NCBI GenBank assembly: GCA_903850735.1 | Contig: CAINMN010000256.1 | Span: 1-54,591 of the forward strand | Length of the DNA: 54,591 nucleotides | Direction: 5' to 3' | Origin: an uncultured Burkholderiales bacterium | GTDB lineage: Bacteria > Pseudomonadota > Gammaproteobacteria > Burkholderiales > Burkholderiaceae_C | In this document: positions 26,737 through 37,893 of the stretch, one piece after another | How positions within the stretch are numbered: the stretch's first letter is position 1 | Layout: each line of letters opens with the position of its first letter | Translations under genes and position numbers: made by a program | The notes under the pieces: model-generated | Databases searched by the model: none | The model's input: the letters and a program-made list of their open reading frames with translations, nothing else | Told to the model about the DNA's origin: nothing

Positions 26737-27690
26737 TCAATTGGGGATCAGGAAATCCCGACTGATGCTGGCGCCCAATTCGTTCACGCGGTCAAGGAAC
26801 TGCGTCAGAAAGGCGTGCAAGCCATTGGCCAGAATTTCATCAATACAACCGTATTGCAATTCGGCGCGCAACTTGCCCGCACGCCGGCTGGTGGCGGCGG
26901 ATTGATCGTTCGCCACCATGGCCAGGTTGCTGACCACTTCGTTCATGCTGGCATGCAAGGAGCGCGGCATGTCGGCGCGCAGCACCAGCAACTCGGCCAC
27001 ACGCTCAGGGCGAATCACGTCACGGTAGACCTTGCGGTAAATCTCAAAGCCCGACACGCTGCGCAGAATGGCGCTCCAGTGGTAGAAGTCGTACTCTTGG
27101 TCCTTGGCGCTGGCCGCGCCAAAAAAATCGCTTTGCACGGCGTGGAACTTCACATCCACCAAGCGCGCCGTGTTGTCGGCACGCTCCAGGAAAGTGCCCA
27201 GCCGCATGAAGTGCAGCGACTCGTCCATCAGCATGGTGCCCACGGTCACGCCGCGCGAGAGGTGTGAGCGAAATTTGACCCACTCAAAGAATTGGCTGGG
27301 GTCGCGCTCGAACTCCCCGGAGCGAATGCGGCGGTTCAACTCCAGCCAGGTCTGGTTTTGGGTTTCCCAGACCTCGGTGGTCAGGGCGCCGCGGACAGCA
27401 CGCGCGTTCTCGCGCGCCGCACGCAGGCACGAAATGATGGACGAAGGGTTGTCCTCGTCTTTCACCATGAACTCCATGACCTTGCGCGCCTTGATTTCGC
27501 CGTACAAGGCCTCGTAGGAAGGCAGCAACTCGCTGATGGAGAGCAGGCCTTTCCAGCCCAGTTCGGCCACCGCCGCAGACTGGGGCAACAAAGACGTCTG
27601 GTAGTTCACGTCCAGCATGCGGGCGGTGTTCTCGGCACGCTCGGTGTAGCGCGACATCCAGAACAAGTGGTCGGCGGTGCGTGACAGCAT
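26737..27690 (-). CDS. alpha-E domain protein
   Basis: A 317-residue, mostly helical protein consisting of one alpha-E (DUF403) domain. It opens MLSRTADHLFWMSRYTERAENTARM, with acidic and basic residues spaced as in the family. Alpha-E proteins almost always occur next to circularly permuted ATP-grasp ligases and transglutaminase-like proteins, and are thought to be partners in peptide or amide synthesis. No biochemical role is established. It begins three bases after the ATP-grasp gene stop, with GAGAG overlapping as ribosome binding site, so the two are translated from one mRNA driven by the sigma-54 promoter at 29167-29181. Confidence 0.93.
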   Translation of the reverse strand: MLSRTADHLFWMSRYTERAENTARMLDVNYQTSLLPQSAAVAELGWKGLLSISELLPSYEALYGEIKARKVMEFMVKDEDNPSSIISCLRAARENARAVRGALTTEVWETQNQTWLELNRRIRSGEFERDPSQFFEWVKFRSHLSRGVTVGTMLMDESLHFMRLGTFLERADNTARLVDVKFHAVQSDFFGAASAKDQEYDFYHWSAILRSVSGFEIYRKVYRDVIRPERVAELLVLRADMPRSLHASMNEVVSNLAMVANDQSAATSRRAGKLRAELQYGCIDEILANGLHAFLTQFLDRVNELGASISRDFLIPN

Positions 27691-27693
27691 CTC

Positions 27694-29139
27694 TCAGTTC
27701 TCCAGAATCCAGGTGTCTTTGGTGCCACCGCCTTGCGAGGAGTTCACCACCAGGGAACCCTCTTTCAGGGCCACGCGCGTCAAGCCGCCAGGGACCATCT
27801 GAACGGTCTTGCCACTGAGAACAAACGGGCGCAGGTCGATGTGGCGCGGCGCGATGCCACTGTCCACATAGGTTGGACAGGTCGACAGGCTGAGGGTGGG
27901 CTGTGCGATGTAGCGCGTCGGGTCGGCCAACAGCGCTTTGCGGAAATCTTCGATTTCGGCCTGGGTCGCAGCGGGCCCGACCAACATGCCGTAGCCGCCT
28001 GCACCGTGCACCTCTTTCACCACCAATTCGGACAAATGCGCCAAGGTGTATTTCAAGTCTTCTGCATCACGGCACTGGTAGGTCGGCACGTTGTGCAGGA
28101 TGGGCTTTTCACCCAAGTAGAACTCGATCATCTTGGGCACATAGGGGTAAATCGATTTGTCATCGGCAATGCCGGTGCCGATGGCGTTGCAAATGTTGAC
28201 ATGGCCGGCGCGGTAAACGTCGAGCAAACCAGCACAGCCCAGCGTGGAGGTGGGTCGGAATGCCAAAGGGTCGAGGAAATCATCGTCCACACGCCGGTAA
28301 ATCACATCGACGCGGCGCGGCCCCTGCGTGGTGCGCATGTAGACGAAGCGGTCGCGCACAAACAGGTCCTGGCCTTCCACCAACTCCACACCCATTTGCT
28401 GCGCCAGGAAGGCGTGCTCGAAATAGGCGCTGTTGTACATGCCTGGGGTGAGCACCACCACCGTGGGTTCGGCCGTGGTTGACGGGCTGCAAGCGCGCAA
28501 GGTTTCCAGCAACAAATCCGGATAGTGGGCCACCGGGGCCACGGGATACTTGCGAAACAGTTCGGGGAACAGGCGCATCATCATCTTGCGGTCTTCCAGC
28601 ATGTAGCTGACGCCGCTGGGCACGCGCAGGTTGTCTTCCAGCACAAAGTACTCGCCCTCGCCCTGGGCATTGGGTGCGCGCACGATGTCAATGCCGCTGA
28701 TGTGCGAGTAAATGTCGCCGGGCACGTTGACGCCCACCATTTCCGGACGAAACTGGGCGTTCTGCAAAATCTGATCCGAGGGGATCAGCTCGGCCTTCAA
28801 AATCTCTTGGTCGTGGTAGATGTCATGAATGAACCGGTTCAGCGCCGTCACCCGTTGCACCAAACCCTTTTGCATGCTGGACCACTCATGGGCCGGAATG
28901 ATGCGCGGAATCAGGTCGAAGGGAATCAGGCGCTCGGTCCCCGAGCCGTCCGCGTCTTTTTCGCCGTAGACCGCGAAGGTGATGCCCACGCGACGAAAAA
29001 TCATTTCGGCTTCTTCGCGTTGCGCTTGCATCTGGGAGTCGCTCTGCTGCGCCAGCCAGGCGCTGTAATCCTGGTAATGAGGCCTCAAACCCCCCTTTGC
29101 ATAGGGGAGTTGGGCATACATTTCATCAAACATCTTCAT
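27694..29139 (-). CDS. circularly permuted ATP-grasp ligase-like protein
   Basis: A 481-residue protein of the circularly permuted ATP-grasp type 2 family, predicted to ligate carboxylates to amines using ATP. The likely catalytic parts are intact: acidic/Asn residues in VLEDNLRVPSG (about 165), the glycine loop KEVHGAGGYGMLVGP (about 375-388), HIDLRPFVLSG (about 430), and VNSSQGGGTKDTW near the C-terminus. The ATG at 29139 has AGGAG ten bases upstream. A second ATG, two codons later, is possible. The predicted sigma-54 transcript start at about 29155 leaves a 16-base leader that begins at this ribosome binding site. Product unknown. Confidence 0.93.
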   Translation of the reverse strand: MKMFDEMYAQLPYAKGGLRPHYQDYSAWLAQQSDSQMQAQREEAEMIFRRVGITFAVYGEKDADGSGTERLIPFDLIPRIIPAHEWSSMQKGLVQRVTALNRFIHDIYHDQEILKAELIPSDQILQNAQFRPEMVGVNVPGDIYSHISGIDIVRAPNAQGEGEYFVLEDNLRVPSGVSYMLEDRKMMMRLFPELFRKYPVAPVAHYPDLLLETLRACSPSTTAEPTVVVLTPGMYNSAYFEHAFLAQQMGVELVEGQDLFVRDRFVYMRTTQGPRRVDVIYRRVDDDFLDPLAFRPTSTLGCAGLLDVYRAGHVNICNAIGTGIADDKSIYPYVPKMIEFYLGEKPILHNVPTYQCRDAEDLKYTLAHLSELVVKEVHGAGGYGMLVGPAATQAEIEDFRKALLADPTRYIAQPTLSLSTCPTYVDSGIAPRHIDLRPFVLSGKTVQMVPGGLTRVALKEGSLVVNSSQGGGTKDTWILEN

Positions 29140-29166
29140 GAACAGAGCACTCCTGCCTCAGTTATA

Positions 29167-29181
29167 GCAAGTTGGGTGCCA
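29167..29181 (-). promoter_or_regulatory. sigma-54 promoter for the ATP-grasp/alpha-E operon
   Basis: On the minus strand TGGCAC-CCAAC-TTGC followed by TA matches the -24/-12 consensus (TGGCAC-N5-TTGCW) at every core base. GG is at 29180-29179 and GC at 29168-29167. The predicted start of transcription is near 29155, 16 bases before the ATG. NtrC-like dyads lie about 64 and 83 bp upstream, the usual distance for an enhancer-binding activator. Confidence 0.82.
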
Positions 29182-29203
29182 CTGAAAAGCAAGCAGGACC
29201 CGC

Positions 29204-29246
29204 CCATCTTGGCACCAAGATGGTGAGTAGACCCCATTTTGGTGCA
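29204..29246. promoter_or_regulatory. tandem NtrC-like enhancer dyads
   Basis: The classical NtrC site has the form GCACC-N5-GGTGC. Here GCACC-AAGAT-GGTGA (29212-29226) matches 9 of 10 bases and ACCCC-ATTTT-GGTGC (29231-29245) matches 8 of 10. Their centres are 19 bp apart, near two helical turns. The first overlaps a perfect 9-bp inverted repeat, CCATCTTGG-CA-CCAAGATGG (29204-29223). Both lie midway between two divergent starts and could serve both operons. Confidence 0.6.
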
Positions 29247-29296
29247 ATCCAGGTTCATTGCCATCCTAAATTCTGGGCTGTAGACACGGTGGGCAC

Positions 29297-29311
29297 TGGC
29301 TTGGCTCTTGC
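29297..29311 (+). promoter_or_regulatory. sigma-54-like promoter for the transglutaminase operon
   Basis: TGGCTT-GGCTC-TTGC followed by T keeps the essential GG (29298-29299), ten-base spacing and GC (29310-29311), with two mismatches in the -24 region. Predicted transcription start is about 29323, directly before the chosen ATG. The mRNA would therefore be leaderless or the start lies elsewhere. Weaker than the minus-strand site. Confidence 0.45.
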
Positions 29312-29323
29312 TAGAGCATGGAC

Positions 29324-32300
29324 ATGTCGATCCATGCCGCGCTTCACCACGTCACCGAATACCACAACGACCGACCGGTCAAGCTGGGGCCCCAGGTCAT
29401 CCGCCTGCGCCCCGCTCCCCACAGCCGCAGTCGCATCCTCTCGTATTCGCTGCGGGTCGAGCCCGAACAGCACTTCATCAACTGGCAGCAGGATCCCTTC
29501 TCCAACTACCAGGCACGCTTGGTGTTTCCAGAAGCCACAACGGAATTCAAGGTCACGGTCGACGTCGTGGTCGAAATGTCGGTGTTCAATCCCTTCGATT
29601 TCTTTCTCGAGCCGGGCGCCGAACACTTTCCCTTCAAGTACGAACCTCTGTTGGCACAAGAACTAGCGCCCTACCTGGCCAAAGCGCCGCTGACGCCCAA
29701 GCTCAAAGACTATGTCGCCTCGCTTGCTGCGCCCCAAGGCACCACCCGCACCATCGATTTTTTGGTGGGGCTGAACCAGAAACTTCAGCAAGACATTCGT
29801 TACCTGATTCGCATGGAACCAGGCGTGCAAACGCCAGAAGAAACCCTCACCCTGGGCTCGGGCTCATGCCGGGACTCCGGCTGGTTGCTGGTCAATGTGC
29901 TTCGCCATGTTGGCCTGGCAGCCCGCTTCGTCTCCGGCTATCTGATCCAGCTCAAGCCCGATGTGAAATCGCTCGATGGCCCCAGTGGCACCGAGGTCGA
30001 CTTCACCGACCTGCATGCCTGGTGCGAGGTCTACCTGCCAGGCGCGGGATGGATTGGCTTGGACCCCACCTCCGGGCTGTTGGCCGGTGAAGGCCATGTA
30101 CCGCTGGCCTGCACGCCCCAGCCTTCAAGTGCGGCACCCATCGAAGGCTTGATCGACAAAGCCGAAGTGACGTTCGCGCACAGCATGGCGGTCACGCGCG
30201 TCCACGAGTCGCCGCGTGTCACACGGCCTTACACCGACAACCAATGGGATGCCGTTCTGGCCCTGGGTGAACGGGTCGACCAGCAACTGGTGGCGCACGA
30301 TGTGCGCCTCACCATGGGCGGTGAACCCACCTTTGTCGCCACCGCTGACCGCGACGCGGCCGAATGGAACACCGATGCCTTGGGCCCGACCAAACGTGGT
30401 TATGCCACGCAATTGGTTCACAAACTGCGCGATGAATACGGCCAAGGCGGCTTTCTCCATTTCGGCCAAGGCAAGTGGTACCCCGGTGAGCAATTGCCAC
30501 GCTGGGCCCTCGGCATTTATTGGCGAAACGATGGCAAGCCCTGCTGGCAAAACCCTGAGCTGTTTGCGGACGAGTCACATCCCACGCATTACACGCCGGT
30601 GGACGCACAGCGCTTTGTGCAACACCTCACCCACAAGCTGGGATTGAACAATGACTTCATCACGCCGGGCTATGAAGACACCTGGTATTACCTCTGGCGC
30701 GAGCGCCGTCTGCCGGTCAACGTCGACCCTTTTGACTCCCGTCTTGATGACGAACTCGAGCGCTTGCGCCTGCGCCGCGTGTTCGCGCAAAAGCTGGACA
30801 CCGTCATTGGCTATGTGCTGCCGATTGCCCCCAACGAAAGCCACACACTTGCCGACGCGCCCTGGGTCAGTGGCCCGTGGTTTGTGCGCGATGAGCGCTT
30901 GTATTTGATTCCCGGTGACTCGCCCATGGGCTACCGTTTGCCCCTGGACTCCTTGCCCTGGGTCAGCCAAGAAGACTACCCTTACCAGCACGCGCTGGAC
31001 CCGTTTGCGCCACGCTCACCCCTGGCGGAAAACTTCACACCGCGCCAACTGCGTCAACCGAGCGCCCCCATGGTGGGTTCTGCCCAAGCCAAGTCCGCCA
31101 CTGCGCAGCCACACCATCGCTGCGCCTCAGCACACGATGTCGTGCGCACGGCCTTGTGCGTCGAGGTGCGTGACCCGCGACGCGCCAACGGCCCCCAAGC
31201 GCAAACCCAGGGCCAAGCTGGCGGCGTGCTGTATGTGTTCATGCCGCCGCTGCCCCGCCTGGAGGATTACCTGCGCTTGCTCGCGGCGGTGGAAGCCACC
31301 GCCCAAGAGCTGGACATGCAACTCGTGCTGGAGGGCTACCCGCCGCCACGCGATCCGCGCCTCAAGGTGTTGCATGTCACCCCCGACCCTGGCGTGATCG
31401 AAGTCAATATCCATCCCGCGCACAACTGGCGCGAGTTGGTCGACCACACCGAGTTTTTGTACCAGGCCGCCTTTGAAACCCGCCTGAGCGCTGAAAAATT
31501 CATGACCGATGGCCGCCACACCGGCACAGGGGGCGGCAACCACTTTGTGCTGGGCGGCGCCACCCCGGCCGACAGCCCGTTCTTGCGTCGCCCCGAATTG
31601 CTGGCCAGCCTGATCCTTTACTGGCACAACCACCCCTCGCTGAGCTACCTTTTCAGCGGCATGTTCATTGGCCCCACCAGCCAAGCACCGCGCGTGGACG
31701 AAGCCCGCAACGACCAGGTCTATGAGCTCGAAATTGCGCTCAGAGAAATCATGCGACAGCGAGAAATCCATGGCCAGGAAATGCCTCCTTGGCTGGTCGA
31801 CCGCGCGCTGCGCAACATCCTCATCGACGTCACCGGCAACACCCATCGCAGCGAGTTCTGCATCGACAAGCTTTATTCGCCAGACACCAGCACTGGCCGC
31901 CTGGGCCTGCTGGAGTTGCGCGCGTTTGAAATGCCGCCCCATGCCCAGATGAGCATCGTGCAGCAACTGTTGTTGCGCGCCATGATCGCACGTTTCTGGC
32001 AACAGCCCTACCGCGCGCCTGCCACGCGTTGGGGCACAGAATTGCACGACCGTTTTCTGTTGCCCACCTTTGTCCAAATGGACTTTGAGGATGTCATGTC
32101 GGAAATGCGCGACGCGGGCTTTGCATTCGACAGCGCCTGGTTCGCGCCGCACTTCGAGTTCCGCTTCCCGCGCGTGGGCGACTTGCAAACCCGGGGTATG
32201 GTCATGACCCTGCGCAATGCGCTGGAACCCTGGCATGTCATGGGCGAAGAAGGCGCGCCGGGCGGCACCGTGCGCTATGTAGACTCTTCCTTGGAGCGCA

Positions 32301-32713
32301 TCGAGGTGCGCATCCATGGCTTCAACGAAAGCCGTTATGTGGTCACCGTGAACGGCCGCGCCCTGCCCTTGCAACCCACCGGCACACAAGGCGACTTTGT
32401 CGCGGGCGTGCGCTACCGGGCCTGGAGCCCGCCATCTGCGCTGCATCCCACCTTGAGCAGCGATGCGCCCTTGACCTTTGACCTGTTCGACACCTGGACC
32501 GGTCGCTCACTGGGAGGCTGCCAATACCACGTGGCGCACCCCGGCGGTCGCAACTATGTGACCTACCCGGTGAATGCCTATGAGGCCGAAAGCCGGCGTC
32601 TGGCGCGCTTCTTCCGCCAGGGCCATACGCCGGGCGCCATGGATGTGCCCGAGGCCAGCATTCGCCAACCGGGCAGCCGTGAGTTCCCCTTCACCCTGGA
32701 CCTGCGGCGCTGA
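29324..32713 (+). CDS. large transglutaminase-like protein with C-terminal DUF2126
   Basis: A 1129-residue protein. The N-terminal part (about 1-260) is a transglutaminase-like cysteine hydrolase with a Bact_transglu_N region and core triad Cys182 (GSGSCRDSGW), His231 (DLHAWCEVYLPG) and Asp247 (GLDPTSG). The remaining about 850 residues form the DUF2126 region, usual partner in these clusters. It carries conserved segments such as LTMGGEPTFV, HFGQGKWYPGEQLPRW and TGGGNHFVLGG. No signal peptide is seen, so it should be cytoplasmic. An ATG six bases upstream is possible. It probably cuts or crosslinks peptides made by the ATP-grasp enzymes, which is inference. Confidence 0.93.
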   Translation: MSIHAALHHVTEYHNDRPVKLGPQVIRLRPAPHSRSRILSYSLRVEPEQHFINWQQDPFSNYQARLVFPEATTEFKVTVDVVVEMSVFNPFDFFLEPGAEHFPFKYEPLLAQELAPYLAKAPLTPKLKDYVASLAAPQGTTRTIDFLVGLNQKLQQDIRYLIRMEPGVQTPEETLTLGSGSCRDSGWLLVNVLRHVGLAARFVSGYLIQLKPDVKSLDGPSGTEVDFTDLHAWCEVYLPGAGWIGLDPTSGLLAGEGHVPLACTPQPSSAAPIEGLIDKAEVTFAHSMAVTRVHESPRVTRPYTDNQWDAVLALGERVDQQLVAHDVRLTMGGEPTFVATADRDAAEWNTDALGPTKRGYATQLVHKLRDEYGQGGFLHFGQGKWYPGEQLPRWALGIYWRNDGKPCWQNPELFADESHPTHYTPVDAQRFVQHLTHKLGLNNDFITPGYEDTWYYLWRERRLPVNVDPFDSRLDDELERLRLRRVFAQKLDTVIGYVLPIAPNESHTLADAPWVSGPWFVRDERLYLIPGDSPMGYRLPLDSLPWVSQEDYPYQHALDPFAPRSPLAENFTPRQLRQPSAPMVGSAQAKSATAQPHHRCASAHDVVRTALCVEVRDPRRANGPQAQTQGQAGGVLYVFMPPLPRLEDYLRLLAAVEATAQELDMQLVLEGYPPPRDPRLKVLHVTPDPGVIEVNIHPAHNWRELVDHTEFLYQAAFETRLSAEKFMTDGRHTGTGGGNHFVLGGATPADSPFLRRPELLASLILYWHNHPSLSYLFSGMFIGPTSQAPRVDEARNDQVYELEIALREIMRQREIHGQEMPPWLVDRALRNILIDVTGNTHRSEFCIDKLYSPDTSTGRLGLLELRAFEMPPHAQMSIVQQLLLRAMIARFWQQPYRAPATRWGTELHDRFLLPTFVQMDFEDVMSEMRDAGFAFDSAWFAPHFEFRFPRVGDLQTRGMVMTLRNALEPWHVMGEEGAPGGTVRYVDSSLERIEVRIHGFNESRYVVTVNGRALPLQPTGTQGDFVAGVRYRAWSPPSALHPTLSSDAPLTFDLFDTWTGRSLGGCQYHVAHPGGRNYVTYPVNAYEAESRRLARFFRQGHTPGAMDVPEASIRQPGSREFPFTLDLRR

Positions 32714-32753: not shown

Positions 32754-35348
32754 GTGGAAAACGAACGCCAAGCCACTTCGCACCCCCTGACCATCCCTGA
32801 GCGGCTGGCGGCTTGGGCCGAGCCTGCGGCCTCGGGCCATTTCAATGAACTGCGGGGTGCGTCAGAGCCAGCGCAGGCACAGACGCTGGCGCCCGCCTGG
32901 TCCACCTTTTTTGAGCATGTGGGCCATGAAGGCCTGAACGACTTGAACCAACGCACGCGCGACCTGCAGCGGCAGGTGCGCGACAACGGCATCACCTACA
33001 ACGTGTATGCCGACCCGCAAAACCCGCAACGCCCCTGGTCGCTGGACCTGTTTCCCTTGCTGCTGACGCAGCAAGACTGGCAAACCATTGAACAAGGCGT
33101 TCAACAACGGGTGCAAGTGCTGGAAAAGGTCATGGCCGATGCCTACGGTCCCCAGCGCTTGCTGCACGAAGCCTTGATCCCGCCCGCCCTGGTGCAAGGT
33201 CACCCCGGTTACATCCGCTCCATGCATGGCGTCACACCCGTCGGCGACACGCGGCTGCACATTGTCGCCTTTGATTTGGCGCGCAGCCCTCAAGGCCATT
33301 GGTGGGTGGTCTCGCAACGCACGCAAGCCCCCTCAGGGCTGGGCTACTTGCTGGAAAACCGCTTGATCATTTCCCGCTTGTTTCCGCAAGCCTTCGAAGC
33401 CATGCAAGTGCAACGCCTGGCGGGCACCTACCGCGCGCTGATGGAGGGCATCCGGCAGCGCAGCCCGGCCGGAACCGATGCGCACATTGCCCTGCTCACC
33501 CCCGGGCCCTACAACGAAACCTACTTTGAGCATGCCTACCTGGCGCGCTACCTCGGCGTCACCCTGGTCGAGGGCAGTGACCTGACGGTGCGCGACCAGC
33601 GCTTGTACCTCAACACCTTGCGCGGTCTCGAGCCGGTGCATGGCATGATCAAACGCCTCGACGACCAATTCCTGGACCCGCTGGAATTGCGCGCGGACTC
33701 CACGCTGGGCGTGCCCGGCTTGCTGCAAGCCATTCGGGCAGGCCATGTGCTTGTGGCCAATGCGCCGGGCTCGGCCTTTCTGGAGTCGCCCGCCCTGCTG
33801 GGTTTCTTGCCAGCCTTGTCCGAAGCCTTGCTGGGCGAAACCTTGCAATTGCCGTCCTTGCCCACCTGGTGGTGTGGCGAGCGCGCGGCCTTGGACGAAG
33901 CCCAGCACCGCCTGAGCACCAGCGTCATCAAACCCACCTTTCCTTGGGGCTTGCCCGGCAACCCCACCCTGGAATCGGTGCTGGGCCGAGGCTTGAGCGA
34001 ACGCGCGCAAGACGAATGGGCTGGGCGCATGGCGCGCCAAGGCGAAGACTTCACCGTTCAAAATTATTTGCCTTTTTCGCAAATGCCCACCTGGCACAGC
34101 ACGATGGACGGTGGCCGACTGCAACCGCGCTCGGTGCTGCTGCGCGTCTTTGCGGTGGCCCAAGCCAGCGGCCGATGGAATGTGTTGCCCGGTGGGCTGG
34201 CACGCCTGGCGGTGCCGGGTGCTGAAATTGCCTCCATGCAACGCGGTGGCAGCAGCGCCGATGTCTGGGTGCCGTCCCAAGAACACCCGCACGGCGCGGA
34301 GGAAACCGAGACCACCACGGCCAGTGTGCATGTGCCGGCCTCCGCCAGCTTTGGCTTGCGAAAACGCCTGGTCACCAGCCGTGCGGCAGAGAACCTTTAC
34401 TGGCTGGGTCGCTACAGCGAGCGCAGCGAAAACAGCTTGAGCCTGGCGCGCTTTTCACTGGAAGCCCTGAGCGGCGAAAACCAGCACTCACGTCCGCTGT
34501 TGCAGTGGCTGTACGAACTGACGACGCGGCAAGGTCTGGTGCCGCCCGGCGTGCCGCACCCGCAGGCCTCGCGTCGCCTGTTCGAGCGCACCTTGATCGC
34601 CAGCCTCCACAAAGACGACTGGACCAGCGTGGGCTACAACCTGCGCGCGCTGCGACAGGCCGCCTCGGCAGTGCGCGAGCGTTTGTCGCTGGAGCACTGG
34701 AACCTGATTGACCGCACGGAAAAAGATTTTTTTGCGCAATGCGACAAACTCACACAACAAGGTGACGCCGCATCCATCGAGGCACTGCACCTGCTGGACA
34801 CCATCAATCGCCAGCTGGCCGCCATCACCGGCGCCCAGACCGATCGCATGGTGCGAGACGACGGTTGGCGTTTGCTCAGCATTGGCCGGCACGTGGAACG
34901 CCTGGCTTTTCTGTCTTCTGCGTTGAGCTTGGCTTTTGCATCCGGTGGACTCGACCATCCGCAAAAAGACGATGCGGTCTACACCGGGCTGCTGGCGCTG
35001 TTTGACAGCACCATCACCTTTCAGTCGCAGTACCAGCAAAACCGAAGCCTGCCTTCGCTGCTGGCCCTGCTGGTGCAAGACACCGACAATCCGCGCTCGC
35101 TGGCCTGGGTGGCCCAAACGCTCAAAGGACGGCTCTCCAAGCTGGCCGGCAGTGGCGCCGAGGAGCTCGATGGCTTGGCGCGCATGGTGCCCAGCCCAGC
35201 GAGTTGGGTTGCCACAGCGCAACCAACCCGTGACAGCCTGACAACCGAGTTGCAGAACTGCCTGCAGGCCATTTACACCTTGTCCGATGCCATTGGCGCG
35301 CGTTACTTCACGCACCTGCGGGATGGCGAACAAAGCTTGGGCTTCTGA
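32754..35348 (+). CDS. ATP-grasp/alpha-E fusion protein with degenerate ATP-grasp domain
   Basis: An 864-residue fusion: a circularly permuted ATP-grasp-like domain (about 60-510) and an alpha-E domain (about 535-855, opening LVTSRAAENLYWLGRYSERSEN). The fold-determining parts of the first domain align well with the stand-alone protein at 27694 (LTPGPYNETYFEHAYLA, KRLDDQFLDPLELR). However, catalytic segments are changed: LEDNLRVPSG became VSQRTQAPSG (about 185), the glycine loop became PTFPWGLPG (about 393), and NSSQGGGTKDTW became ASMQRGGSSADVW (about 495). The ATP-grasp half is therefore probably inactive or altered. Start is GTG, 40 bp after the transglutaminase. Confidence 0.93.
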   Translation: MENERQATSHPLTIPERLAAWAEPAASGHFNELRGASEPAQAQTLAPAWSTFFEHVGHEGLNDLNQRTRDLQRQVRDNGITYNVYADPQNPQRPWSLDLFPLLLTQQDWQTIEQGVQQRVQVLEKVMADAYGPQRLLHEALIPPALVQGHPGYIRSMHGVTPVGDTRLHIVAFDLARSPQGHWWVVSQRTQAPSGLGYLLENRLIISRLFPQAFEAMQVQRLAGTYRALMEGIRQRSPAGTDAHIALLTPGPYNETYFEHAYLARYLGVTLVEGSDLTVRDQRLYLNTLRGLEPVHGMIKRLDDQFLDPLELRADSTLGVPGLLQAIRAGHVLVANAPGSAFLESPALLGFLPALSEALLGETLQLPSLPTWWCGERAALDEAQHRLSTSVIKPTFPWGLPGNPTLESVLGRGLSERAQDEWAGRMARQGEDFTVQNYLPFSQMPTWHSTMDGGRLQPRSVLLRVFAVAQASGRWNVLPGGLARLAVPGAEIASMQRGGSSADVWVPSQEHPHGAEETETTTASVHVPASASFGLRKRLVTSRAAENLYWLGRYSERSENSLSLARFSLEALSGENQHSRPLLQWLYELTTRQGLVPPGVPHPQASRRLFERTLIASLHKDDWTSVGYNLRALRQAASAVRERLSLEHWNLIDRTEKDFFAQCDKLTQQGDAASIEALHLLDTINRQLAAITGAQTDRMVRDDGWRLLSIGRHVERLAFLSSALSLAFASGGLDHPQKDDAVYTGLLALFDSTITFQSQYQQNRSLPSLLALLVQDTDNPRSLAWVAQTLKGRLSKLAGSGAEELDGLARMVPSPASWVATAQPTRDSLTTELQNCLQAIYTLSDAIGARYFTHLRDGEQSLGF

Positions 35349-35357
35349 AGCTTCACC

Positions 35358-36269
35358 ATGCTGCTGCGCATCACCCACGAAACCCGCTATGACTACGCAC
35401 CTGCCGTGGGCACGGCACAGCATATTTTGCATTTGCAACCGCGTGACACTTTGCGACAGCATGTGGTGCAGCATCAGTTGCAGATCACGCCCGAGCCTTC
35501 ACAAACCTTGGCGCAAACCGATGTGTACGGCAACCCCATGAGCTACGTCGCTTTGCAGGCGCCGCACGAAGCCCTGAGCCTGGTCTCGCGCAGCGTGGTC
35601 AAGACCTTGGGCGCAGCCGCCCCAGCTGCCGCGGCACTGAGCGTGCGCTGGGAAAGTGTGCGCAACCGATTCCGTTACCAGGTCGGTGCGCGCTACGACG
35701 CCGCCATCGACCATGTGTTTGCCTCGCCGCATGTGCCACGCCACCCTGCCTTTCAAGATTACGCTTTGCCCAGCTTCACACCCGGTCGCCCCCTGCACGA
35801 GGCCGCACGCGATCTGAGCGCGCGCATCCATTTTGACTTTCGCTACGAAAGCCACAGCACCGATGTCAGCACACCAGCCTTGGAAGCGCTGCAGCAACGG
35901 CGCGGGGTCTGCCAAGACTTTGCGCACATCTTCATTGCCTGCTGCAGGGCGATGGGCCTGGCCGCGCGCTATGTCAGCGGCTATTTGCTGACGGTGCCAC
36001 CGCCTGGACAGCCACGCCTGATTGGCAGCGATGCCTCACACGCCTGGGCCTCGGTGTACGTGCCCGATGACCAGGAGGGCCCCGGCCATTGGCTGGACTG
36101 CGACCCCACCAACAACCGCTGCGACTGGGAAACACCGGGCGAAGACTATGTCACCGTGGCCATGGGCCGCGACTATGCCGACGTCTCGCCCGTGCGCGGC
36201 GTCATTCACGGTGGCACCCACCACACACTGGCGGTTGCGGTCACCGTCGAACCCGCCGGCGATGCTTAA
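35358..36269 (+). CDS. transglutaminase-like cysteine hydrolase
   Basis: A 303-residue protein with the N-terminal Bact_transglu_N region (MLLRITHETRYDYAPAVG) and the transglutaminase core. The triad is complete: Cys185 (RRGVCQDFAH), His228 (DASHAWASVYVP) and Asp249 (LDCDPTNNR). It lacks a signal peptide. It is nine bases after the fusion gene and ends the operon. Family members of this type act as peptidases or amide-transferring enzymes, and the likely partner is the product of the ATP-grasp proteins. Its TAA stop overlaps the stop of the convergent gene in the tetranucleotide TTAA. Confidence 0.93.
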   Translation: MLLRITHETRYDYAPAVGTAQHILHLQPRDTLRQHVVQHQLQITPEPSQTLAQTDVYGNPMSYVALQAPHEALSLVSRSVVKTLGAAAPAAAALSVRWESVRNRFRYQVGARYDAAIDHVFASPHVPRHPAFQDYALPSFTPGRPLHEAARDLSARIHFDFRYESHSTDVSTPALEALQQRRGVCQDFAHIFIACCRAMGLAARYVSGYLLTVPPPGQPRLIGSDASHAWASVYVPDDQEGPGHWLDCDPTNNRCDWETPGEDYVTVAMGRDYADVSPVRGVIHGGTHHTLAVAVTVEPAGDA

Positions 36270-37332: not shown

Positions 37333-37893
37333 TCATTTCCAGCGAATCGGTTCGATCATCACGCTGCCGCGTTGGCTGCTCAGGGTCAGCGCGCCTTCCT
37401 GCACCGTGGCCTGCAGCTGCATGCTGCGCTCGGCCAATGCGCTCAAGGCTTGCGAGGCTTCGGTGGGCACGCGCCACACCTGCAATTTATCGAGCCTGGA
37501 CAACTTGTTTTCAATGCCGCGCCACCAGACCTCTGCAGCGTGGTGAAAGGCATAGACGATGACCGCGTCGGCTTTGCTGCAGGCCTTGGACAAAGGCTTG
37601 TCCTCGGGTTGGCCGACTTCGATCCACAGCCGCTTGCGGCCGGTGAAATCGGTGAGGGACACATCGGGGTCGTCCGGATCCGACAGGCCGGCGCCAAAAG
37701 CCAGGGTGCCATCGCCATTGCAAACGGACTGCAAGGTATGGGCTTGCAAAGCCAATGCCACCAGACGAACCATCATGCGCTCATCGGTTTCGCTGGGGTG
37801 ACGCGCCAAAGTGAGGGAGTGATCGGCGTAATAACTGTGATCGATGTCGGCCATTTGCAAGCCGGCTTTGAAGATGGTGGATTTGATGGCCAT
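37333..37893 (-). CDS. YaeQ family protein
   Basis: A 186-residue cytoplasmic protein of the YaeQ family, whose fold resembles PD-(D/E)XK nucleases. It starts MAIKSTIFKAGLQMADIDHSYY and contains HPSETDERMMVRLVALAL, LSDPDDPDVSLTDFTG-like GLSDPDDPDVSLTDFTGR, and IEVGQPEDKPLSKACSKAD, all recognisable family blocks. E. coli YaeQ was reported as a suppressor linked to RfaH, but its molecular role is unsettled. It ends 26 bp before the PLP-enzyme gene start and may be co-transcribed with it. Confidence 0.92.
   Translation of the reverse strand: MAIKSTIFKAGLQMADIDHSYYADHSLTLARHPSETDERMMVRLVALALQAHTLQSVCNGDGTLAFGAGLSDPDDPDVSLTDFTGRKRLWIEVGQPEDKPLSKACSKADAVIVYAFHHAAEVWWRGIENKLSRLDKLQVWRVPTEASQALSALAERSMQLQATVQEGALTLSSQRGSVMIEPIRWK

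Follow-up and report, generated by a model that had tools for sequence, protein, structure and literature searches.

The stretch of DNA analysed here (54,591 nucleotides, referred to below as the window) raises the question of how two divergently oriented groups of poorly understood genes for ATP-grasp, Alpha-E and transglutaminase-like proteins are controlled in a freshwater bacterium. The window represents one contig of a 3.09 Mb genome that is distributed over 382 contigs. The start codons of the minus-strand group (ATG at 29139) and the plus-strand group (ATG at 29324) are separated by 184 bp, and the genes concerned are the following.

26737-27690, minus strand: Alpha-E protein of 317 aa (PF04168, 332 bits)
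27694-29139, minus strand: circularly permuted ATP-grasp protein of 481 aa (PF14403, 551 bits; PF04174, 504 bits)
29324-32713, plus strand: Bact_transglu_N, Transglut_core and DUF2126 protein of 1129 aa (PF09899, 1344 bits; PF08379; PF01841)
32754-35348, plus strand: fused ATP-grasp and Alpha-E protein of 864 aa (PF14403; PF04168)
35358-36269, plus strand: small transglutaminase-like protein of 303 aa (PF08379; PF01841)

According to the original prediction, the minus-strand genes are preceded by a site that matches the σ54 core fully and that would place the transcript start at an AGGAG ribosome-binding site. Indeed, TGGCACCCAACTTGC at positions 29181-29167 carries all 10 core letters. Transcription from σ54 promoters usually starts about 12 nt past the C of the -12 element, which is located at 29167. 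The predicted start is therefore 29155, the base that immediately precedes AGGAG, and with this usual spacing the mRNA would begin with C-AGGAG and have a leader of 16 nt ahead of the ATG at 29139.

29167-29181, minus strand: predicted -24/-12 σ54 promoter, TGGCACCCAACTTGC, 10/10 core letters, GG-N10-GC
29150-29155, minus strand: transcript start at 29155 as predicted from promoter spacing, followed by AGGAG (29154-29150)

The pattern TGGCAY-N5-TTGC has two matches in the window, namely TGGCACCCAACTTGC and a match ending at 37760 on the minus strand that falls within the open frame 37333-37893. In the entire genome to which the window belongs, 32 matches were found as compared to 7 matches for a reversed control pattern. 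Upstream of the minus-strand site are two dyads, which had been described as having the NtrC form GCACC-N5-GGTGC and as lying at distances of 64 and 83 bp from the predicted transcript start. These distances proved to be correct, but the full form did not, since each dyad matches TGCACC-N5-GGTGCA at 9 of 12 positions and is composed of one good half and one degenerate half.

29211-29227, plus-strand reading: NtrC-like dyad 1, GGCACCAAGATGGTGAG, centre at 29219, 9/12
29230-29246, plus-strand reading: NtrC-like dyad 2, GACCCCATTTTGGTGCA, centre at 29238, 9/12

The two dyads are 19 bp apart. Measured from its centre, dyad 1 is 64 bp away from the minus start and 104 bp away from the plus start (both predicted, the latter being described below), and the respective distances for dyad 2 are 83 and 85 bp. 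Both dyads have an A as the first and a T as the last base of the spacer, as is the case in the NtrC form. An inverted repeat, CCATCTTGG/CCAAGATGG, was considered as a separate operator and rejected, because it overlaps dyad 1 and only one of its arms is intact in the nearest relative (L003). Of 20,000 first-order Markov sequences modelled on the 184-bp intergenic region, 0.2% contained a 10/10 core on one or the other strand and 1.5% contained two dyads of at least 9/12. The minus-strand site by itself (P of about 0.002) is thus only moderately surprising. With these rates, the window alone is suggestive and does not amount to proof, and it is the comparison with relatives that is decisive.

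We therefore turned to the DNA upstream of the ATP-grasp gene in related genomes, where 'genus' refers to genus g1 of the classification used. The 115 upstream loci were chosen mostly by rank from two lists with matches in 41 of 61 and in 143 of 250 genomes, respectively; rows of low identity, partial or tied rows and some rows of lower rank were excluded. A core of at least 9/10 was found in 73 of the 115 loci, whereas the reversed pattern was found in none and the opposite strand gave 3. For cores of at least 8/10 these numbers were 88, 3 and 14, respectively, and 28 loci had a full 10/10 core. In all 15 of the closest genus loci (L002-L016) the -24/-12 site is positioned 39-43 nt before the ATG, and an SD-like tetramer precedes the gene. 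TGGCA and TTGC are invariant in the alignment of these 15 loci, the mean column identity of the region being 38%. The site of Limnohabitans radicicola (L193) is identical to that of genome G235 (L087, label g30), and named Limnohabitans other than sp. Jir61, which belongs to genus g1, accordingly seem to fall in another genus. A further set of 79 titled loci, which partly overlaps the 115 loci and from which one of 80 (L191) was dropped as it had no upstream sequence, contained cores of at least 8/10 in 62 and of at least 9/10 in 35 loci, with 2 and 0, respectively, for the reversed control. In this titled set, the -24 element of Variovorax, Rhodoferax and Hydrogenophaga often reads TGGCCC or TGGCCT.

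Two side observations were made on these loci. In five genus loci (L004, L006, L007, L008 and L015), the DNA upstream of the ATP-grasp gene resembles the 3' end of another frame, which by eye is ComEC-like, and the -24/-12 site is still kept. In addition, the proteins encoded by L174 and L186 share 83% and 82% identity, respectively, with the protein of the window, and the titles of their contigs, Singulisphaera and Akkermansia, therefore look mislabelled.

The invariance of the -24/-12 letters bears on the view that the minus transcript is driven by an ordinary σ70 promoter. This view could build on TGCTATAAC at 29169-29161 on the minus strand, which would serve as an extended -10 element overlapping the σ54 site, and on the finding that homologous genes were still inducible in an rpoN mutant of Pseudomonas putida (PMC7801951, see below). 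However, the TATAA letters vary across the 15 aligned relatives, in which TGGCA and TTGC do not, and no σ70 match with -35 and -10 hexamers 16-18 nt apart was detected in 29100-29360 by a scan that demands a T at the last -10 position. Reading TTGCTATAAC as the extended -10 element of a σ70 promoter was likewise rejected, because it is not conserved. We therefore regard σ70 control as very improbable.

The specificity of the dyads was evaluated by keeping the half-sites and varying the spacer from 0 to 11. Among the 73 loci with a core of at least 9/10, 39 have an N5 dyad of at least 10/12, as compared to 1-9 for each of the other eleven spacers. The 42 loci whose -24/-12 site is weaker showed the same tendency (16 with N5, 0-5 with other spacers). 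It should be noted that the window itself has no dyad of at least 10/12, and that the background is high at the 9/12 strength of the window dyads, since at this threshold N5 dyads are present in 56 of the 73 loci and other spacers reach 17-33. The spacer bases, which were not included in the score, favour A (25 of 44) at the first position and T (27 of 44) at the last. In the titled set, for which this single spacing was scored, an N5 dyad of at least 10/12 was found in 19 of 79 loci. Altogether, the comparison of the intergenic region across relatives, which had been proposed as a check, revealed conservation of both the -24/-12 site and the N5 dyads.

This conservation has its boundaries. 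A core below 9/10 was found before the ATP-grasp gene in 42 of the 115 loci, including loci from clades whose genomes carry NtrC. In family f8, none of the 8 loci examined (L017, L096-L098, L105, L106, L108 and L109) has a good site, the best core being 7, and the same is true for the 3 examined loci of genus g39 (L099, L101 and L103), where the best core is 6. The ATP-grasp gene has been kept in these two groups, and NtrC scored over the cut-off in 10 of their 11 genomes. Control may have moved or been lost in f8 and g39. Altogether, NtrC scored over the cut-off in 44 of 46 genomes tested, the exceptions being G008, which is 72% complete, and G127, a member of f8. The idea that absence of the site tracks absence of NtrC, as in G127 and its locus L109, was rejected as uninformative, because a good site is likewise missing from the other 7 examined f8 loci, where NtrC is present.

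The genome to which the window belongs encodes the factors that such a control region would need. Firstly, rpoN is present, as judged by one σ54 DNA-binding domain (PF04552, 214.5 bits). Secondly, eight matches to σ54-activator domains were obtained, four with strong scores of 231-247 bits and four with weak scores of 20-28 bits. Of these, L064 alone passes the cut-off for ntrC (TIGR01818, 617 bits versus 558.6), despite the fact that the gene is cut by a contig end. As for the other three full activators, L065 has a flagellin gene at a distance of about 4 kb, L062 adjoins a MotB-like gene, and L063 precedes frames resembling FliE, FliK and FlgB. The flagellar placement of L063 was made by eye, since the FliK-like and FlgB-like frames near it had no Pfam match.

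Other genes of the same genome present a comparable arrangement. The glutamine synthetase gene (L081) has, like the window, a -24/-12 site with two upstream N5 dyads. Its dyads match better (11 and 10 of 12, as opposed to 9/12 in the window), are located at a greater distance upstream and are separated by 50 bp instead of 19 bp, whereas its -24/-12 site (8/10) is weaker than the minus site of the window (10/10). A gene for an NMT1-like binding protein has a 10/10 site with two 9/12 dyads, and a gene for a TorF-family porin has a 9/10 site with an 11/12 dyad. Furthermore, an isocitrate lyase gene (PF00463) in L070 is preceded by a 9/10 site around position 1720, and an N5 dyad of 11/12 is located 220 bp upstream of that site. 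It is possible that this represents a further NtrC target, or it may be due to chance.

These findings also allow us to consider a σ54 promoter that responds to an enhancer-binding protein other than NtrC. The imperfect dyads of the window would be compatible with such a protein, as would the situation in Variovorax, where 16 of 17 titled loci have no N5 dyad of at least 10/12 and most do have a -24/-12 site of 8-9/10. Nevertheless, the genome has only four strong activator domains, the three that fall short of the ntrC cut-off sit on contigs with flagellar genes or flagellar-like frames, and the dyad signal is specific to the N5 spacing. Together with data on an ntrC mutant of Burkholderia (PMC5491218), this makes a different activator very improbable, and NtrC is the activator that we prefer.

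The relation of these genes to nitrogen has been documented for two homologous clusters, as described in the portions of the respective reports considered here. In Burkholderia cenocepacia H111, I35_5080 (DUF404/407), I35_5081 (DUF403), I35_5082 and I35_5083 (transglutaminase-like) form a four-gene cluster whose members were changed -8.2, -9.4, -9.4 and -6.0 fold, respectively, in an ntrC mutant under nitrogen limitation, and they are listed as common targets of σ54 and NtrC (PMC5491218). The gene families are the same as those in the window, but they are arranged there under four consecutive locus tags and here in two divergent groups that share one control region. The considered portion of that report makes no mention of a leaderless start for I35_5080-5083.

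In P. putida KT2440, the gene for the circularly permuted ATP-grasp protein PP_2688 showed a log2 change of 3.99 on nitrate versus ammonium, and its promoter was up 3.7-fold upon nitrogen depletion, whereas the promoter of PP_2685 was constitutive (PMC8050072). In another study, nitrogen limitation of the wild type raised the expression of PP_2686-2688 by 12.61-, 11.04- and 14.66-fold, with PP_2685 being nearly flat (1.12); these three genes are listed under ntrB/ntrC, and in a relA/spoT mutant their increase amounted to 17- to 37-fold (PMC7801951). The window resembles the PP_2685-2688 cluster in having the circularly permuted ATP-grasp gene with its neighbours. A difference is that the P. 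putida cluster includes the proteasome-like PP_2685, whereas the sole proteasome-family match of the present genome is located on another contig. Genes of this type often form an operon with Anbu, a role in peptide synthesis has been suggested, and nitrogen limitation of P. putida increases Anbu (PMC5666114). The proteasome-family protein in question is encoded at positions 1171-1995 of L311 (contig C344; PF00227, 27.7 bits) and is Anbu-like by eye. No -24/-12 site of at least 8/10 was found before this gene, and in view of this and its location a link of an Anbu gene to the cluster was rejected.

The published data on rpoN dependence are in conflict between the two organisms. In the P. putida rpoN mutant, nitrogen limitation still raised the expression of PP_2686-2688 by 14.16-, 16.02- and 19.61-fold, and the same was observed for urtA (11.12 in the mutant versus 12.7 in the wild type; PMC7801951). 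This speaks against a sole dependence on σ54 in P. putida, unless the test was leaky. The proposal that low nitrogen is the physiological trigger of the ATP-grasp/Alpha-E genes nonetheless draws support from the conserved -24/-12 sites and N5 dyads, the presence of genes for σ54 and NtrC, and the published induction of homologous clusters. This proposal is not new, since nitrogen induction and NtrC dependence have already been published for such clusters. Our literature search found no paper that covers both Limnohabitans and NtrC.

What the original prediction had missed is a divergent site on the plus strand, which is positioned directly before the transglutaminase/DUF2126 gene.

29297-29311, plus strand: predicted divergent -24/-12 site, TGGCTTGGCTCTTGC, 8/10 core letters, 12 nt before the ATG at 29324

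The -24 element of this site reads TGGCTT, which is weaker than TGGCAC, and the predicted plus start is near 29323. When the first 150 residues were used as the query, the transglutaminase gene was found in 45 of 84 genus genomes, and 33 of these 45 loci were examined (L252-L281, L005, L013 and L018). TGGC-N7-TTGC precedes the transglutaminase ATG in all 33, and sites of at least 8/10 are present in 33 of 33 as compared to 1 of 33 for the reversed pattern. The distance from the GC of the site to the ATG is 12 nt in 22 loci, 13 nt in 5, 14 nt in 2 and 15 nt in 4. No two of the 33 upstream 60-mers are alike, and the letters between the site and the ATG vary while the spacing has been kept. Moreover, N5 dyads of at least 10/12 are located upstream in 20 of the 33 loci (0-2 for other spacers), and N5 dyads of at least 9/12 in 30 (2-13 for other spacers).

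The situation is different in the other genera of the family. The transglutaminase gene is present in 138 family genomes, and 29 of these with newly fetched loci were examined. A site of at least 8/10 was found in 27 of the 29 loci, at a distance of 28-159 nt in 23 of them and of 13-15 nt in 4 (L285, L293, L295 and L310), L285 having two further sites upstream. The locked spacing is therefore mainly a feature of genus g1. Outside the genus, N5 dyads on the transglutaminase side are no more common than dyads with other spacers (3 of 29 versus 0-3).

With a start twelve bases past the C, the placement of the plus promoter in the genus puts the predicted +1 at the start codon, either exactly or within a few bases, and the mRNA would begin one to four bases before the AUG. 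The site thus predicts a σ54-driven transcript that is leaderless or nearly leaderless. In this respect the plus gene would resemble the leaderless mRNAs of start-site maps, which start at or beside the AUG (PMC3616915, PMC4842269). The B. japonicum report among these two describes an extended -10 motif at leaderless genes. The parts of PMC3616915, PMC9045368 and PMC4842269 considered here name no leaderless σ54 gene; we make no claim that such an arrangement is without precedent. SD-like tetramers were found before the transglutaminase gene in 5 of 33 genus loci and in 6 of 29 family loci. Their absence was dismissed as proof of leaderless translation, since they are rare elsewhere in the family as well and their absence is thus not specific for the genus; it does fit with leaderless translation.

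The plus promoter might be real and its message yet possess a leader, if transcription started earlier or if a different start codon were used. Start points of σ54 promoters vary by a few bases, which would allow an earlier start, and the spacing of 13-15 nt in 11 of the 33 loci leaves a few leader bases. On the other hand, the same start codon is aligned in the genus and in family loci where the promoter is further upstream. Specifically, the codon at the aligned place is an ATG in 28 of the 29 family loci and a TTG in L302, so that the assigned plus start codon is likely to be right. In addition, the distance from the site to the ATG has been kept although the intervening bases vary. We consider a message with a leader rather unlikely, and a start at or beside the AUG is the reading adopted below.

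Two -24/-12 sites with their conservation, N5 dyads, and genes for σ54 and NtrC can all be read directly from the sequences. On this basis, we consider it highly probable that the 184 bp constitute a bidirectional, NtrC-activated and σ54-dependent control region for both groups of genes. For the events at this region we infer the following course. Upon nitrogen limitation, phosphorylated NtrC would bind to both dyads (29211-29246), which most likely serve both promoters. It would then activate σ54 RNA polymerase at the minus site (29167-29181), leading to expression of the ATP-grasp and Alpha-E genes from a presumed operon with the short AGGAG leader. NtrC would also activate the plus site (29297-29311), from which a second presumed operon for the transglutaminase/DUF2126 protein, the fused ATP-grasp/Alpha-E protein and the small transglutaminase would be transcribed. 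The latter transcript would begin at the AUG or a few bases off.

The more specific proposal is that one NtrC enhancer drives two divergent σ54 promoters with opposite modes of translation, namely SD-led translation for ATP-grasp/Alpha-E and leaderless translation for transglutaminase/DUF2126, with the +1 locked to the AUG in the genus. We favour this proposal by a narrow measure. Its new element is the second promoter with a predicted leader that is locked and close to zero in length, and a σ54 site fixed at the start codon would be an unusual arrangement that has been kept in the genus. On strong comparative grounds, our present findings extend the published link between nitrogen starvation and the ATP-grasp/Alpha-E/transglutaminase system to freshwater relatives of Limnohabitans. 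If the proposal is true, these bacteria would possess a dedicated leaderless σ54 promoter, and a large enzyme would be made during nitrogen starvation via SD-independent initiation.
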